A stretch of 64,000 nucleotides of DNA from Neolewinella agarilytica (lineage in GTDB: Bacteria; Bacteroidota; Bacteroidia; Chitinophagales; Saprospiraceae). Every line of letters begins with the position of its first letter. Positions within the stretch are counted from its first letter, which is position 1. The notes below the pieces were generated by a model. It was not told the DNA's origin and searched no databases. It was given only the letters and a program-made list of their open reading frames with translations. Position numbers and translations under genes: made by a program. Shown piece after piece: positions 9,487 to 64,000 of this stretch. Location of the stretch: contig NZ_FOFB01000001.1 in NCBI RefSeq assembly GCF_900110645.1, forward strand, positions 434,001 to 498,000. Direction: 5' to 3'.

Positions 9487-10710
9487 ATGCTCCTTGACCG
9501 TTTCCTCCGCTACGTACAAATCGATACGCAATCAGACGCCCACTCCCCCACCCAGCCCAGCACAATGAAGCAAAAGGACCTGGGGAAAGTCTTAGCGCAG
9601 GAATTACTTGACCTGGGCCTTGAAGACGCTCACCTGGACGAGCACGGCTACGTCTACGCTACTCTGCCCGCTACTCCGGGTAAAGAAGGTGCGCCCGTCA
9701 TCTGCTTCTGCAGCCACATGGACACCAGCCCGGATGCCAGCGGGAAGGACGTTAAGCCATTGGTCCATAAAAACTACCAGGGGCAGGATCTGGTCTTACC
9801 CGACGATCCATCCATCGTTATTCGTATGGCGGACCATGCGGGGCTAGACCAGTGCATAGGCCACACCATCATTACGGCCTCGGGCACTACCCTGCTCGGA
9901 GCGGATAATAAATCCGGTGTAGCGGCCATCATGACCGCCGTGGAAACCATGGTTAACAATCCCGGCATCGAACACGGACGCGTGCGAATCCTCTTCACCC
10001 CCGACGAGGAGATCGGCCGCGGCGTCAACGCCGTCGACATGGATAAACTCGCCGCCGACTTCGGCTACACCATCGACGGAGAAGAATTCGGCAGCCTGCA
10101 GGATGAGACCTTCAGCGCCGACGGTGCCCGCATCACCATCACCGGCGTAAGCGCCCACCCCGGCATGGCCAAAGGCCATATGGAAAACAGCATCAAGATC
10201 GCGGCGGACATCATCGCCGCCCTGCCCAAAGATCGCCTCAGCCCGGAAACTACTGAAGGGAAAGAAGGCTTTCTCCATCCCGTGGAAATGGAAGCCAAAG
10301 CAGAGTCTGCCCGCATTGATTTTATCCTCCGCGATTTCGACACCGCCAAACTTACCGACCTGGCGAATGACCTGGCGGATATCATCATCGCCGTTGCGCC
10401 CAACTACCCTAACTCAGAAATCAAGCTCAGCATCACGGAGCAATACCGCAACATGAAGGAGGTGCTCGATGAGCACCCCCACGTGATGGCCCTGGCCGAA
10501 ACCGCCATCCGCAACGTCGGCATCACCCCAAAGCCAGACAGCATCCGGGGCGGCACCGATGGCTCCCGCCTGAGCTTTATGGGCCTGCCCTGCCCGAACA
10601 TCTTCGCCGGGGAGCATGCTTTCCATTCAAAGTACGAGTGGGCCAGCCTGGAGGAAATGGAAGCAGCAGCAAAAGTGGTGGTGGAGATTTGCCGCTTAGG
10701 GGCAGAGTGA
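9487..10710 (+). CDS. pepT: peptidase T (tripeptide aminopeptidase)
   Basis: 407 residues, full length for the M20B family. The zinc-site motifs are all visible: CSHMDTSPD, GADNKSG, TPDEEIGRG and the dimerisation-domain segment SAHPGMAKGHMENS. It removes N-terminal residues from tripeptides in the cytoplasm. The dispersed element (9389-9427) lies 60 bp upstream. The stop codon lies at the very beginning of an octamer-repeat hairpin (10706-10848). Confidence 0.95.
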   Translation: MLLDRFLRYVQIDTQSDAHSPTQPSTMKQKDLGKVLAQELLDLGLEDAHLDEHGYVYATLPATPGKEGAPVICFCSHMDTSPDASGKDVKPLVHKNYQGQDLVLPDDPSIVIRMADHAGLDQCIGHTIITASGTTLLGADNKSGVAAIMTAVETMVNNPGIEHGRVRILFTPDEEIGRGVNAVDMDKLAADFGYTIDGEEFGSLQDETFSADGARITITGVSAHPGMAKGHMENSIKIAADIIAALPKDRLSPETTEGKEGFLHPVEMEAKAESARIDFILRDFDTAKLTDLANDLADIIIAVAPNYPNSEIKLSITEQYRNMKEVLDEHPHVMALAETAIRNVGITPKPDSIRGGTDGSRLSFMGLPCPNIFAGEHAFHSKYEWASLEEMEAAAKVVVEICRLGAE

Positions 10711-10848
10711 ATGGGGGAATGAGTGAATGGGAGAATGGGAGAATGAGCGAATGGGAGAATGATTGGATAAATAATTTCTTTCAACAATTTCCACATTCTC
10801 TCATTCAATCATTCCCTCATTCAATCATTCCCTCATTCACTCATTCAG
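10706..10848. repeat. octamer-repeat hairpin between pepT and photolyase
   Basis: Left arm: seven units of the form NNNGAATG (GGAGAATG, AGCGAATG and variants). Right arm (10794-10848): seven units CATTCNNT (CATTCAAT, CATTCCCT). The arms are complementary and can fold into a long imperfect stem with an AT-rich loop. Starts inside the last codons of pepT. Confidence 0.85.
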
Positions 10849-15272: not shown

Positions 15273-15340
15273 GAGTGCATACCTCAACTCCTAGCCGGAG
15301 GCTACTCGCAGCCGCTCTCTGCCCGAGGCAGATTCGACCA
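15273..15340 (+). repeat. single diverged relative of the 160-bp repeat
   Basis: GAGTGCATACCTCAACTCC, then GGAGGCTACTCGCAGCCGCT and CTGCCCGAGGCAGATTCGACC follow, in order, the segment of the tandem unit from GCATACCTCAGTCAACTCC to GGAGGCAGCATCAACC. It ends where the signal-peptide gene for the YceI protein begins. Confidence 0.65.
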
Positions 15341-39555: not shown

Positions 39556-39700
39556 TGTTGCAGGTTGGGCAGGTTGCAGGTTGGGCAGGTTGCAGGTTAC
39601 AGGTTACAGGTTGGGCAGGTTGCAACCTGTAACTTGAAACTTGAAACTTGCAACTTGAAACTTGCAACTTGTAATCTGCAACTTGAAACCTGCAACCTCC
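39556..39700. repeat. heptamer-repeat hairpin
   Basis: Left arm of GTTGCAG, GTTACAG and GTTGGGCAG units (39556-39622) and right arm of CTGCAAC, TTGAAAC, TTGCAAC units (39623-39700). Mostly 7-bp periodic and roughly self-complementary. Lies just after the stop of the dienoyl-CoA isomerase and 130 bp before the S24 regulator start. Confidence 0.85.
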
Positions 39701-59755: not shown

Positions 59756-62671
59756 TTACAAAGAAACGCCCAGGTCAATCCAAACCCCTTCCCGCTTAGC
59801 AGGAGAGATACTCTCCAGATACTCCGAGCTCATTGCATTCTTATTCTCCACGAAGGGGCGAATCTGGAATAGCCAGATCTTATCGTCGGCAAAGCCCAGC
59901 TCTACGTCAAACGGACCATCAGTCTCCACCCCGTCAGAGGCGGGCATTACGCGCTCAACCTCCTGGCCGAGTTCATACAGATCTTTCAGGTTCTTGCGGC
60001 TCAGGATACGTTCGTCAAAGGCAGCGGGTACCATGACACTACCACCGGTTTTGGGCAGGCGGCGATGCAGCCGTTCCCGGGCAGGAGCCAGCAGGGTGAA
60101 ACGGCCCAAATGATCCAGCAGGTAGGACTCAGCGGCCTGTCCGTCCACGGCGCCACCGGCGCCGCGGCTGAAAGCGACCGTAATATCATCCGGGTGGCCG
60201 GAAGTGACGCCCTTGGTGATCATAACACCGGAATGATCAACGTCCACGGTTGGAATGATGAGGATACTGGGAAAGACATTCTCCGGATTGAGGAGGTAAC
60301 GCTGTCGCCAGCGATAGCTGCGCTCCGTGTAGGGGCTGGCCCAAACGGCCTTTATGCCATCAATGATCCCGGCTTCATCCACTACGTTGAAGACGGTCTT
60401 GTTGAGGCCGGCGCCCGTAAAGTCCTCCAGGTCTTCCATGTTCGTATCAGAGCGCAGGAAGACGGGGACACCACCAAGCGGACCACCGAGTACTTTACTG
60501 AATCCCGCCCGTAGCTCATTGATCAGGGAAGGATACAACTCAATCTGCGCAATGGCCGCTCTCAGCGTAGCCAGACGTTCCAGGGTAAAGGTTTCAATTT
60601 CGGCCTCCGAAAAGCCTTTCTCTTCCATCTTTTTGGCGTCGGCGAAACCCCGATTCAGGAACTCCCAGTAAGACAAGTCTCCCTGCCCCGGCATCCGTTG
60701 GTTCAGGTGCTCGCGAAAGATGCCGAAAGGAATAACGAGCCCTTCCACAACCTTCTCCGGGAACAACTGCTTCAACTGCCCGAGGTTGGCAGCCTTCGGC
60801 CCACAACGAACTCCTGAGTCCGTCGAGTTAACGTTGCGCATATTGAGTACTGACTTCGTGCTCAGGTCGATCCGATCAACCGGAACCCGGATGCGCTCCA
60901 GGTTACGCTCCCGAACGGCAAAGAGCTCTTGCTCAACATCAGACATATCACCGGCGGGCTTCATCAAAACCGTCCCGGCATTCGAGACGGCATAGAAAAC
61001 TTCTTCGCCGTCATAACTTTTCAATTCGGAGAACTGATCATCCGTCAGTACCGCATTAGGTATGCCCAGGTTACGGGCCAACAGCTGTACGTGGCTGACC
61101 ATATTCCCTTCGCTGACGGTCAAAATTCCACCGACGGGCTTCAGGTCTGCCGGCGGGCGACTGAAGACAAAAATGTCGTTAGGGTTCACTTCTACTTCGT
61201 CGGGGGTTCCTTCAATCAGGCGAAGCTTTCCTTTGGCAAAACCGGGGTTCAGGCCCCGGGCCTGCGCCTGGTTCCGGAGGTCCATCAGCGCATTGCCCTG
61301 TTCGGAGTGATCCGCGAGCCAGCCGCCAAGCGAGCCAACGGCTTCCCCTAAAGGCAAGAGCACCGAAGAACGGATGCGATCATCCAGAAAGCCTAAAGCC
61401 TTAGGCTCGAAAGCAGCGTAACGCTCAACGACATCCACGTAAACCGCCCGGTTGGTAGCGGTACCCCACTCCACAAAACGACGTGCATTATCAATGTATT
61501 CGTTCAGGCTGGCGGGGAAAATGTATTGGTAGTTCTGATCCGCCAGCTGGCTTTCGGCGTCTTCGTATTCCCAGAGTTCCACCAGTCCGGCACCGGCGGC
61601 AGCTTTACCGAGGTAACAGATTTTTTCCATCAGCTCACGTGGAGATGCCGGCTTCCAGCTGCCGGCGCTGCGGAAGATGAGGTCGGAGAGCTCGTTCTGC
61701 AGGTCGATCATGGCAAGTTTATCCCGGGCGGAAAGTTCCGTGTCCTGCGTCATGGCTTCCCGGAGTTGGAGGCTTACCTCGGTAGCTGCCGTCAGGCGGG
61801 CCTGGTTGTGCCCCTCCGCTTCGTGGTGAAAGATGAATTGCTCAAGCATCCGTTTCATCACGCCGTCAGCGAGGCCGGCGGTCAGGTCACGGATGTTTTC
61901 CAGTCCGCTTCCCCCGTAGGCAGCTTCGATGTCGGCTACGAGTTGCTCCGCGTCTTTCGTCAGTCCTTTTGTGTCCAGTTCCTTTTTATTGGTTTCTGCA
62001 AAGGAGCGTACGGCGGCAGCATCCTCCAGGGCTGGGCTTCCGTGAATCTTTATCCGCAGGTCCATAAAGTCCGGATAAGCATCCGCAATGTTCTTACTTA
62101 CCGCACGGATGCGTTGGTTCAGGTCCGTGTCTCCCCGATGGGGAATATCTCTGGCTGCCTGCAACAACAGGTAATAATCCGTTTTCAGCAATCCGGGCTT
62201 ACGCATCAGCCAGAGGAAAAAATCACGCCCCCAGTTTTCTTCGTCTTCAATCTGAAACGCCCCCCGGTAAAAGCGGGCTTTTTCCAGTACCCAGCCGTTG
62301 TCTACGGCGGCCAGGTAATTCCCCAGCTGATACTGCTTCAGCCGGCTTTGGTCTTTAGCCTCATCCCAAAAACTGGCCCGATCGGTATTCGTCAGGATCT
62401 GCCCCCAATACAGATGATCGCGCACCATCAGGCTTTTGACGTCTGATTTATAATCTGCGTGTTGGTGGTTGTCTTCTGATTGCTCTTCACACGGTTCCCG
62501 TGGCGCATTCTGCGTTCCGTCAGCACAGAACCAGAAAATACCACGATAAGGCCCCCGGGGATCAGCCCGGTATTCATTGACAAGCTCCCGCAGGCGTTCA
62601 TCAGTAGTTTGGGCAGATATCTCAGGGATAAGGGCAAGGAAGAGGACAAAAACAACAAGAAGACGCAGCAT
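59756..62671 (-). CDS. secreted PEP synthase/glucan dikinase-like protein
   Basis: 971 residues. Signal peptide LLVVFVLFLALIPEISAQ. Residues about 30-480 are mainly helical and unrecognised. A swivelling phosphohistidine domain follows with GNMVSHVQLLARNLGIPNAVL (in parts), and then a C-terminal PPDK-type ATP-binding domain: GPKAANLGQLKQLF, VFLRSDTNMEDLEDFTGAGL and ISPxxTKGVTSGHPDD-like VMITKGVTSGHPDD. The order His domain then ATP-binding domain resembles plant alpha-glucan water dikinase rather than PEP synthase, and no C-terminal PEP/pyruvate barrel is present. An ATP-using domain with a signal peptide is unexpected. Confidence 0.8.
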   Translation of the reverse strand: MLRLLVVFVLFLALIPEISAQTTDERLRELVNEYRADPRGPYRGIFWFCADGTQNAPREPCEEQSEDNHQHADYKSDVKSLMVRDHLYWGQILTNTDRASFWDEAKDQSRLKQYQLGNYLAAVDNGWVLEKARFYRGAFQIEDEENWGRDFFLWLMRKPGLLKTDYYLLLQAARDIPHRGDTDLNQRIRAVSKNIADAYPDFMDLRIKIHGSPALEDAAAVRSFAETNKKELDTKGLTKDAEQLVADIEAAYGGSGLENIRDLTAGLADGVMKRMLEQFIFHHEAEGHNQARLTAATEVSLQLREAMTQDTELSARDKLAMIDLQNELSDLIFRSAGSWKPASPRELMEKICYLGKAAAGAGLVELWEYEDAESQLADQNYQYIFPASLNEYIDNARRFVEWGTATNRAVYVDVVERYAAFEPKALGFLDDRIRSSVLLPLGEAVGSLGGWLADHSEQGNALMDLRNQAQARGLNPGFAKGKLRLIEGTPDEVEVNPNDIFVFSRPPADLKPVGGILTVSEGNMVSHVQLLARNLGIPNAVLTDDQFSELKSYDGEEVFYAVSNAGTVLMKPAGDMSDVEQELFAVRERNLERIRVPVDRIDLSTKSVLNMRNVNSTDSGVRCGPKAANLGQLKQLFPEKVVEGLVIPFGIFREHLNQRMPGQGDLSYWEFLNRGFADAKKMEEKGFSEAEIETFTLERLATLRAAIAQIELYPSLINELRAGFSKVLGGPLGGVPVFLRSDTNMEDLEDFTGAGLNKTVFNVVDEAGIIDGIKAVWASPYTERSYRWRQRYLLNPENVFPSILIIPTVDVDHSGVMITKGVTSGHPDDITVAFSRGAGGAVDGQAAESYLLDHLGRFTLLAPARERLHRRLPKTGGSVMVPAAFDERILSRKNLKDLYELGQEVERVMPASDGVETDGPFDVELGFADDKIWLFQIRPFVENKNAMSSEYLESISPAKREGVWIDLGVSL

Positions 62672-62747
62672 GTACAGGTGGCTTGGTATGTAAACGTAAA
62701 GGTAGAACCCCCAAACTAAGGTTTAGTGCGCTCAGCAGGAGTATTTT

Positions 62748-62785
62748 GCGCGCACGCAGGTGCAGAGCTTAGTTAAAAGAGCAAG
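62748..62785 (-). repeat. dispersed 41-bp element, copy 19
   Basis: Minus-strand CTTGCTCTTTTAACTAAG, CTCTGCACCTGCG, TGCGCGC. Ends 77 bp upstream of the secreted dikinase-like gene, same orientation. Confidence 0.78.
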
Positions 62786-62800
62786 AGAAGAGCCCCTTGG

Positions 62801-62841
62801 CCCTGCTCTATATGCCATTCATTGCACCAGCGGACGCGCCC
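62801..62841 (+). repeat. dispersed 41-bp element, copy 20
   Basis: CCCTGCTCTATATGCC, ATTGCACCAGCGG, ACGCGCCC. Back to back with copy 19; the next same-strand gene (recQ) is about 1 kb away beyond the tandem array. Confidence 0.72.
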
Positions 62842-63003
62842 CTCCGGCTTCTCGTTACTGTTTTGCGAGAAGTATCCATCACGTAACGAAAAACCTGTGC
62901 CCAACCGCGCAGCAGCCACCAAGTACATCTGAGTAAATCCATGATAATCTGTGGTCAAATATCCCGTAGCGATTAAAGCCTCGCCTCCTTCGCACGAACA
63001 ATC

Positions 63004-63757
63004 AGTCGCGCAACGGCCAGGGCCAACAGCCCGCATACCTCAGTCAACTCCTTCCCGAAGGGAACTCGCCACCGCTCGCTGCCGGAGGCAGCATCAACCG
63101 GAAAACTCGTCACGCAGCGACCTCCTCCCACTCCTCTTCTCCTCCCGCTCCTCAGGAAAATAAGGTCGCGCAGTGGCCAGGGCCAACAGCCCGCATACCT
63201 CAGTCAACTCCTTCCCGGAGGGAACTCGCCACCGCTCGCTGCCGGAGGCAGCATCAACCGGAAAACTCGTCGCGCAGCGACCTCCTCCCACTCCTCTTCT
63301 CCTCCCGCTCCTCAGGAAAATAAGGTCGCGCAGCGGCCAGGGCCAACAGCCCGCATACCTCAGTCAACTCCTTCCCGGAGAGAACTCGCCACCGCTCGCT
63401 GCCAGAGGCAGCATCAACCGGAAAACTCGTCGCGCAGCGACCTCCTCCCGCTCCTCTTCTCCTCCCGCTCCTCAGGAAAATAAGGTCGCGCAGCGGCCAG
63501 GGCCAACAGCCGCATACCTCAGTCAACTCCTTCCCGAAGGGAACTCGCCACCGCTCGCTGCCGGAGGCAGCATCAACTGGAAAACTCGTCGCGCAGCGAC
63601 CTCCTCCCACTCCTCTTCTCCTCCCGCTCCTCAGGAAAATAAGGTCGCGCAGCGGCCAGGGCCAACAGCCGCATACCTCAGTCAACTCCTTCCCGAAGGG
63701 AACTCGCCACCGCTCGCTGCCGGAGGCAGCATCAACCGGAAAACTCGTCACGCAGCG
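63004..63757 (+). repeat. 160-bp tandem array, about 4.7 copies
   Basis: The anchor GGCCAGGGCCAACAGC starts at 63015, 63175, 63335, 63495 and 63654, giving periods of 160, 160, 160 and 159. Copies differ by a few substitutions and one single-base deletion (CAGCCCGC to CAGCCGC). Each unit contains an internal hairpin (GCTGCC-GGAGGCAGC region) and a pyrimidine-rich tract of CTCCTCC/CTCCCG. The last copy is truncated before GAACAGGTAG. A 160-bp period is not a multiple of three, so the frames through it are not proteins. The rest of the 62672-63823 gap holds element copies 19 and 20 and an AATCC-TGATAATCTGTGGT motif (62939-62955) shared with 16007-16027. Confidence 0.95.
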
Positions 63758-63791
63758 AACAGGTAGAAAAGATAACCTCAACCTATCTCCG

Positions 63792-63799
63792 TACCTTGC
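63792..63799 (+). promoter_or_regulatory. -7-like box of recQ
   Basis: TACCTTGC, one base short of TAnnTTTG, 24 bp before the inferred TTG start and 35 bp after the tandem array. Confidence 0.4.
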
Positions 63800-63823
63800 C
63801 TCGCAGCTAATCAACCACTGAAC

Positions 63824-64000
63824 TTGTCACCAACCGAAATTCTGCAGAAATACTGGGGTTACCCGTCCTTCCGGCCCGGGCAGGAAGATATTGTTAATGC
63901 CGTACTGGAAGGCAGAGACACCCTGGCACTGCTACCCACCGGCGGCGGTAAGAGCATCTGTTTTCAGGTACCAGCCATGGCCCTGGAGGGCGTCACCATC
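63824..64000 (+). CDS. recQ: RecQ-type ATP-dependent DNA helicase, 5' end only
   Basis: Fifty-nine codons from a TTG at 63824 to the window edge. LQKYWGYPSFRPGQEDIVNAVL (in parts) and Walker A LLPTGGGKSICFQVPA are the RecQ helicase N-terminus, including the Q-motif region FRPGQ. RecQ unwinds DNA in recombination and replication restart. No ATG lies in frame near the family start; TTG is inferred. A TACCTTGC -7-like box lies 25 bp upstream, and a 160-bp tandem array ends about 65 bp upstream. Confidence 0.9.
   Translation, partial: MSPTEILQKYWGYPSFRPGQEDIVNAVLEGRDTLALLPTGGGKSICFQVPAMALEGVTI

Follow-up and report, generated by a model that had tools for sequence, protein, structure and literature searches.

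A tandem array upstream of recQ in Neolewinella agarilytica as a probable amplified cluster of atypical REP-like elements

The closest described counterparts of the tandem array considered here, which lies ahead of the recombination helicase gene recQ in Neolewinella agarilytica, are clusters of repetitive extragenic palindromic (REP) sequences. The array was found in a stretch of 64,000 nucleotides (contig NZ_FOFB01000001.1, positions 434,001 to 498,000 of the forward strand), called the window below, and coordinates are those of the window unless a contig is named. In Pseudomonas fluorescens SBW25, ordered clusters consist of tandem, nearly identical REP doublets (REPINs) together with their flanking sequence; the largest holds four REPINs and one REP over more than 700 bp, and three notable clusters adjoin genes of REP-associated tyrosine transposases (RAYTs, or TnpA_REP), according to the sections of PMC3116915 that deal with them. 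REP clusters reiterated together with flanking DNA are also described in the relevant part of PMC3733652, where CGTC-tagged repeats are listed from Bacteroidetes among other phyla, and REPs usually number more than 100 per genome by the account in PMC2817692. Subclass 2.6 of TnpA_REP consists mostly of Bacteroidetes proteins. Its repeats, which are not of the GT[AG]G type, are termed 'atypical secondary structures' in the broad survey PMC6006769, and this label is the only description that its main text gives of them; neither Lewinella nor Saprospir- nor tandem is mentioned in the main text of the survey. In the literature searched, which comprised main texts available without subscription, a report of such repeats in Lewinella was not found.

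The array upstream of recQ is probably a cluster that arose by tandem amplification of an atypical (non-GTAG) REP-like element of Lewinella, an element presumably spread by a RAYT, with recQ as an incidental neighbour.

Structure of the array and dispersal of its modules

Tandem Repeats Finder (TRF) placed the array at 63005-63758 with a period of 160, 4.7 copies, 97% matches, 0% indels and a score of 1424, the highest among the arrays of the window. The initial annotation, made from the letters alone, had described nearly five units of about 160 bp with few differences, and its coordinates were right to a base. By alignment, the units along the array measure 157, 160, 160, 159 and 118 bp, the first being short by 3 bases at its start and the last being partial. 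Any two units differ by 1-6 bases over the 115-160 columns compared, and the closest pair is the first and the last copy, with 1 difference in 115 columns. Eight columns are variable, 6 of them in a single unit only, and a 1-bp deletion is common to the last two units.

The unit was found to be a mosaic of module A (two triloop hairpins in a core of 61 bp), module B (a small hairpin) and module C, a GA-rich arm of about 40 bp which follows B'-A-B and which, read on the plus strand, is the C/T-rich tract pointed out in the initial annotation. The architecture of the array is [B'AB](C[B'AB])x4, beginning within B' and ending within B, with C only between copies. The internal hairpins claimed at that time are real, namely TTCCCgaaGGGAA, GCTGCCggaGGCAGC and GTCGCgcaGCGAC, each with a loop of 3 nt; B' and B are small hairpins of the GTCGCgcaGCGAC type on either side of module A. 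In minus-strand reading the consensus of module A is CGGTCGAnGCTGCCTCCGGCAGCGAGCGGTGGCGAG, then hairpin 2, then GAGTTGACTGA. The TCC loops are direct, that is, on the same strand, and the feet GTCGA and, on the opposite strand, GTCAA are inverted. Folding of the whole unit gave no advantage over shuffled sequences (z -0.19 to -0.30), and the hairpins are therefore regarded as local. A structured RNA of unit length was rejected for the same reason and for want of a match to the Rfam 15 covariance models, which gave 0 matches at E<=5 over 62600-64000. Two reading frames (197 and 186 aa) stay open over most of the array. A coding array was nevertheless rejected, since the period of 160, correctly called non-triplet before, shifts the frame with each full unit and since the modules are extragenic elsewhere. 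A CRISPR or integron array was rejected as well, because the units are contiguous and alike over their full length, without unique spacers or cassettes.

When a single unit was searched for in the own genome (G000; 6.22 Mb in 74 contigs), 58 matches at E<=10 were returned, of which 29 were below 1e-4, the array itself accounting for 5. Separate genomic places match separate parts of the unit. For the 14-mer of module B the genome has 16 occurrences, 3 of them within the array, and a reversed-pattern control gave 0. Module C is also found alone elsewhere, and at five loci (L016, L017, L022, L027 and L029) it was seen by eye to be one arm of an inverted pair. The suggestion that other arrays of the unit be sought in the genome was fruitful to the extent that arrays with parts of it were found on C20 and C21. 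The former (2.5 x 170 bp) is a diverged relative of the unit. The latter, at G000:C21:23018-23856 (L022 1350-2188, 3.9 x 213 bp), has only module C in common with the recQ unit. Among the 12 loci bearing module A, 11 are not contained in any open reading frame (ORF) of at least 180 aa, one of these (L010) overlapping the end of a 329-aa ORF, and the twelfth, L028, lies inside a 213-aa frame; 5 of the 12 are only 2-12 bp away from an ORF. Another repeat dispersed through the genome, about 80 bp long and with no relation to module A, was met at L064 (3942-4023) and at 17 places in G000, with three copies spaced 206-207 bp on C67.

Paired changes maintain both stems of module A. The alignment (A1), from which the partial matches L032, L025 and L033 were excluded and into which identical cores were entered once, holds 24 distinct copies from the own genome and from its nearest relative G009. 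In these copies 92.7% of the stem cells are paired, compared with 78.8% (sd 1.2) in shuffles. Changes on both sides were seen in 9 of 12 pairs, with 41 double-change cells; 0 of 500 shuffles came up to the paired fraction or to these two counts. The shuffle test is inflated by the kinship of the copies; stems slid along the alignment, a control which retains that kinship, gave at most 46.4% paired cells.

A covariance model of module A (R1) was then used to follow the element through other genomes. Most strong matches in G000 and G009 were in its training set, and at most 150 candidates were scored per genome (150 of 2976 in the own genome; up to 3216 elsewhere), so all counts are lower bounds. 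Among the candidates scored, matches at E<=0.01 were present in at least 14 of 30 genomes, the own one among them; all 14 belong to the 19 genomes of the same genus, and the 11 genomes of other genera yielded 0. At least 18 strong copies, each of at least 64 bits, lie at the 12 loci of the own genome, and at least 9, each of at least 56 bits, lie in G009; the best score outside these two genomes was 48.9 bits among the candidates scored. A pattern scan of genome contigs gave 18 stretches, 2 from an uncultured Lewinella metagenome-assembled genome and 16 from scattered phyla; the latter 16 were taken as chance hits. In another species of the genus, four copies of GCTGCCTCCGGCAGC follow one another at intervals of about 26 bp (L033, G008:C1:450177-450298).

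The nearest relative and the link to RAYT genes

G009, an uncultured Lewinella metagenome-assembled genome that is 55% complete, is the nearest relative searched as judged by the start of RecQ (95% identity over 59 aa; the next is 81%). At the same intergenic place it carries a single B'AB unit at a distance of 63 bp from recQ, with conserved flanks and without module C. Since a collapsed assembly of B'AB-C-B'AB should have retained module C, a true single copy at this site is likely. Over 1.9 kb that take in the last unit and the greater part of recQ, the two genomes are 84.8% identical. Four array copies, each aligned singly to the G009 unit, are 72.9-75.9% identical to it, while they lie within 1-6 bases of each other, and the recent expansion proposed in the initial annotation is supported by this difference. 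Hairpin 2 at recQ has changed in both arms between the species, being TTCCC/GGGAA here and GCAACC/GGTTGC in G009. One unit without C in the relative points to an older element and to a composite unit multiplied later in the own lineage. The element at recQ would thus predate the split of the species and would have been amplified here afterwards, unless gene conversion has evened the copies.

Of the 9 strong G009 copies, 5 are at sites that bear the element in the own genome too, namely recQ, C119/window 15.3 kb, C422/C45:144.9 kb, C372/C45:150.3 kb and C339:894/C60. The other 4 have no counterpart here, and at two of those sites the flanks match. Between matching flanks, BLAST showed 220 bp with the element on G009 C145 and 14 bp here; an alignment leaves more unmatched, the edges are inexact and a target duplication was not recognised. 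On C257 the corresponding lengths are 500 bp and 195 bp. In G009 a stretch of about 430 bp is present twice, roughly 1.9 kb apart; the element at C339:2845 belongs to the second occurrence, which has no equivalent here. For C339:1279, an R1 match in the own genome was not found among the candidates scored. These presence/absence differences may be insertions or deletions, and deletions would count against spread by a transposase.

Seven Y1_Tnp matches were found in the own genome, and a query with the C30 RAYT added one more RAYT, on C41; by the same query, C30-like RAYTs are present in 20 of 21 genomes of the genus. Hairpins with loops of 3-4 nt were seen by eye on both sides of 6 of the 7 Y1_Tnp loci, the exception being L042. 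Three of the own RAYTs are next to arrays, of 7.0 x 146 bp (C27), 3.0 x 124 bp (C30) and 2.8 x 162 bp (C55). By TRF no array was present at L037, L038, L042 and L169, and L043 had only a 15-bp repeat; among the RAYT loci that we chose for TRF, 9 of 10 had arrays. The C27 array, about 9.8 kb past the recQ array and beyond the window, adjoins a RAYT ORF of 161 aa (G000:C27:507551-509045; L040 396-1890) and contains the hairpins gacgcTATgcgtc and accagGCTctggt.

The RAYT search listed 49 matches, and loci were built for 30 of them. The tree and the flank tests used 35 rows, consisting of 29 of these 30 loci plus L038, L039, L040, L046, L050 and L056; L170, in which an open frame bearing the motif was not found, and L043 were excluded. 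At 28 of the 35 loci the 600 bp on the left and those on the right share an identical hairpin with a 5-bp stem; in outer windows of the same loci this was so at 0 of 35, and in mismatched pairs at a mean of 2.95 of 35. The pattern of module A hairpin 1, GCTGCYTCNRGCAGC, was found in the flanks of 8 of 10 RAYTs that bear the VWAE motif and of 0 of 25 others (Fisher test, 1.9e-6), and the exact 15-mer of hairpin 1 in the flanks of 5 of the 10 and 0 of the 25. The VWAE RAYTs, which include the own C30 RAYT, form one side of a tree branch with support 88/95. The hairpin of the C30 RAYT, GCTGCTTCCAGCAGC, is letter-identical in the C60 copy of module A and in three G009 copies, and R1 gave weak matches of 27-32 bits around this RAYT. 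The foot of the module A consensus, GGTCGA, is of a kind seen with other clades. That this type of hairpin stems from a RAYT is well supported, but the combination of hairpin 1 at VWAE RAYTs with a foot of other clades fixes no single enzyme. The RAYT lineages themselves (flanks L149-L178) differ in both stem and foot, as in GGTCAA-gacgcTATgcgtc-GAC, GGTTGA-ggcttTTTaagcc-GAC and GTACAAT-gctgccTCAggcagc-GCC. Pfam Y1_Tnp scored above its cut-off in 3 of 4 RAYTs tested, and the Y motif of the own class-2 RAYTs is YVLNNP or YILNNP.

Weighing of the explanations and the setting of recQ

According to the explanation favoured here, the founder would have been extragenic, about 116 bp long and built as B'-A-B from short hairpins closed by 3-nt loops, and a RAYT single-strand transposase would have spread it through the genome. 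The likeliest enzyme would come from the clade to which the own C30 RAYT belongs, and its target would be the hairpin GCTGC[C/T]-TCC-[G/A]GCAGC. In the own lineage B'-A-B would then have been joined with the module C arm and the composite brought to the 4.7 copies observed, an order of events that is itself conjectural. In the tandem step, the direct hairpins B' and B could have allowed slippage or unequal recombination, or else the RAYT could have transferred strands repeatedly. Slippage or recombination is a plausible amplifier because nearly identical direct hairpins bound the element.

Several observations weigh against this explanation. Module A copies are few (at least 18) beside the REP norm of more than 100 per genome, and module A lacks a GT[AG]G foot. 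A full module A was not found beside a RAYT at the 7 own Y1_Tnp loci, at 13 in four relatives or at the 30 loci from the C30 RAYT query, where only stretches of about 16-40 bp were seen. A GGYYGA-type foot with a 5-bp stem, resembling module A, is present at 14 of the 25 other RAYTs and at 0 of the 10 VWAE RAYTs. NCBIfam REP_Tyr_transpos was the best model for the four RAYTs tested, yet at 50.6-70.3 bits it stayed below its cut-off of 80. Further pair types in the module A stems are also unexceptional, 78 of 500 shuffles being as high.

A wider proposal is that Lewinella holds a distinct RAYT-driven type of repeat, with stems of 5-6 bp, 3-nt loops (often TCC/GGA), same-strand doublets without GTAG, lineage-specific stem and foot codes and frequent composite arrays with periods of about 27-300 bp, module A being a hybrid. 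This we offer tentatively, as a possibility that is rather doubtful at present. If it is true, module A would combine one clade's stem with another clade's foot, and such a hybrid could share enzymes or change from one to another.

The array could also be the product of slippage or recombination in an old inert repeat on which no enzyme has acted for a long time, the likeness to RAYT hairpins reflecting a remote common origin. The sites common to G009 and the own genome (5 of 9), the mismatch of the module A foot with the VWAE clade and the direct hairpins bounding the element would fit such a history. It is nevertheless unlikely, as the stems have been maintained through paired changes, 4 of the 9 G009 copies are without counterpart here, and there are module A copies whose hairpin matches that of the own C30 RAYT exactly. 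An artefactual unit number is conceivable for a 754-bp array, longer than a short read, in an assembly of 74 contigs. The array is, however, inside a contig of 590 kb, and false repeats would tend toward identity while these units vary at 8 columns, 6 of them in a single unit, with a 1-bp deletion common to the last two; an artefact is accordingly very improbable.

The remaining possibility concerns the genes on either side (Table 1). The initial annotation had placed the array correctly upstream of recQ, which starts with TTG at 63824, but had left unmentioned the divergent gene with a PPDK_N domain on the minus strand, so that the array in fact sits between divergent genes. RecQ was identified by TIGR00614 (391 bits; cut-off 219.8). 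The sequence TACCTT, which we take to be the Bacteroidota -7 box (TAnnTTTG), occurs in 8 of 13 loci of the genus at 27-43 bp ahead of the aligned start of recQ, and here at 63792, 33 bp from the end of the array. A cis-regulatory array for recQ, for the PPDK_N-domain gene or for both, in which hairpins or protein sites tune transcription or topology between divergent promoters, could be read from this position just short of a conserved promoter-like box and from retention of the element at recQ in two species. However, identical module types adjoin other genes, the nearest relative has a single unit at recQ, and the element was found at only 2 of the 13 genus recQ loci examined, those of this genome and G009. 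A 6-bp triloop hairpin was absent from the upstream regions (up to 400 bp) of the 11 others, one of which offered only 114 bp. Regulation of either gene therefore seems quite unlikely. The role specific to recQ that had been raised earlier finds no support in any of the findings, and recQ is apparently a chance neighbour of the array.

Tandem repeats with periods of 7-30 bp are also present in the window at 10705-10847 and 39557-39696; as far as seen, they have no sequence kinship with the array.

Table 1. Coordinates, within the window, of the array, its modules and the adjacent genes
Feature	Position	Strand	Basis or remark
Tandem array, 4.7 composite units	63005-63161, 63162-63321, 63322-63481, 63482-63640, 63641-63758		TRF and unit alignment
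Module A core, copy 1	63040..63100	-	R1 match, 87.0 bits
Module A core, copy 2	63200..63260	-	R1 match, 89.3 bits
Module A core, copy 3	63360..63420	-	R1 match, 84.7 bits
Module A core, copy 4	63519..63579	-	R1 match, 83.3 bits
Module A core, copy 5	63678..63738	-	R1 match, 87.0 bits
Module B hairpin GGTCGCTGCGCGAC	63269..63282; exact copies 63429-63442, 63588-63601	-	Pattern search
Module C, CT-rich arm	63122..63161, 63282-63321, 63442-63481, 63601-63640	+	Dispersed matches to unit positions ~121-160
Diverged single module A copy	15280..15340	-	BLAST; R1, 70.4 bits
Promoter-like box of recQ, TACCTTGC	63792..63799	+	TACCTT conservation upstream of recQ
recQ, first part	63824..64000	+	TTG start; 634 aa, extends beyond the window
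Divergent gene, PPDK_N domain	59756..62671	-	971 aa

Comparison with described REP systems

Apart from correcting the idea of an array specific to recQ, the analysis provides within one genus 35 RAYT loci (in 28 cases with hairpins that match on the two sides), natural stem variants and a site that carries one unit in one species and about five in another. With such natural variation, the matching of enzyme and repeat and the tandem amplification of REP clusters become directly testable.

Like the REPIN clusters of SBW25, as described in the sections of PMC3116915 cited above, the array consists of tandem, nearly identical units which include flanking sequence. Unlike the majority of REP doublets there, which are made of two inverted REPs, module A has both hairpins TCC-looped on the same strand; the stems here are only 5-6 bp, the loops 3 nt, and no RAYT is adjacent to the array. 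Neither the GTAG nor the CGTC tag given for REPs in the relevant part of PMC3733652 is at the foot of module A. Features in common with subclass 2.6, in the main text of PMC6006769, are Y1 HUH proteins of Bacteroidetes, flanking hairpins without GT[AG]G and copies elsewhere in the genome. The Y motif here, mostly Y[VI]LNNP, is closer to that of subclass 2.4 (YIxNNP) than to that of subclass 2.6 (YIH[QN]NP) in the same text, a likeness of motif alone. The array probably works like a REP cluster and differs from the canonical GTAG-REP, with a RAYT as its presumed enzyme.
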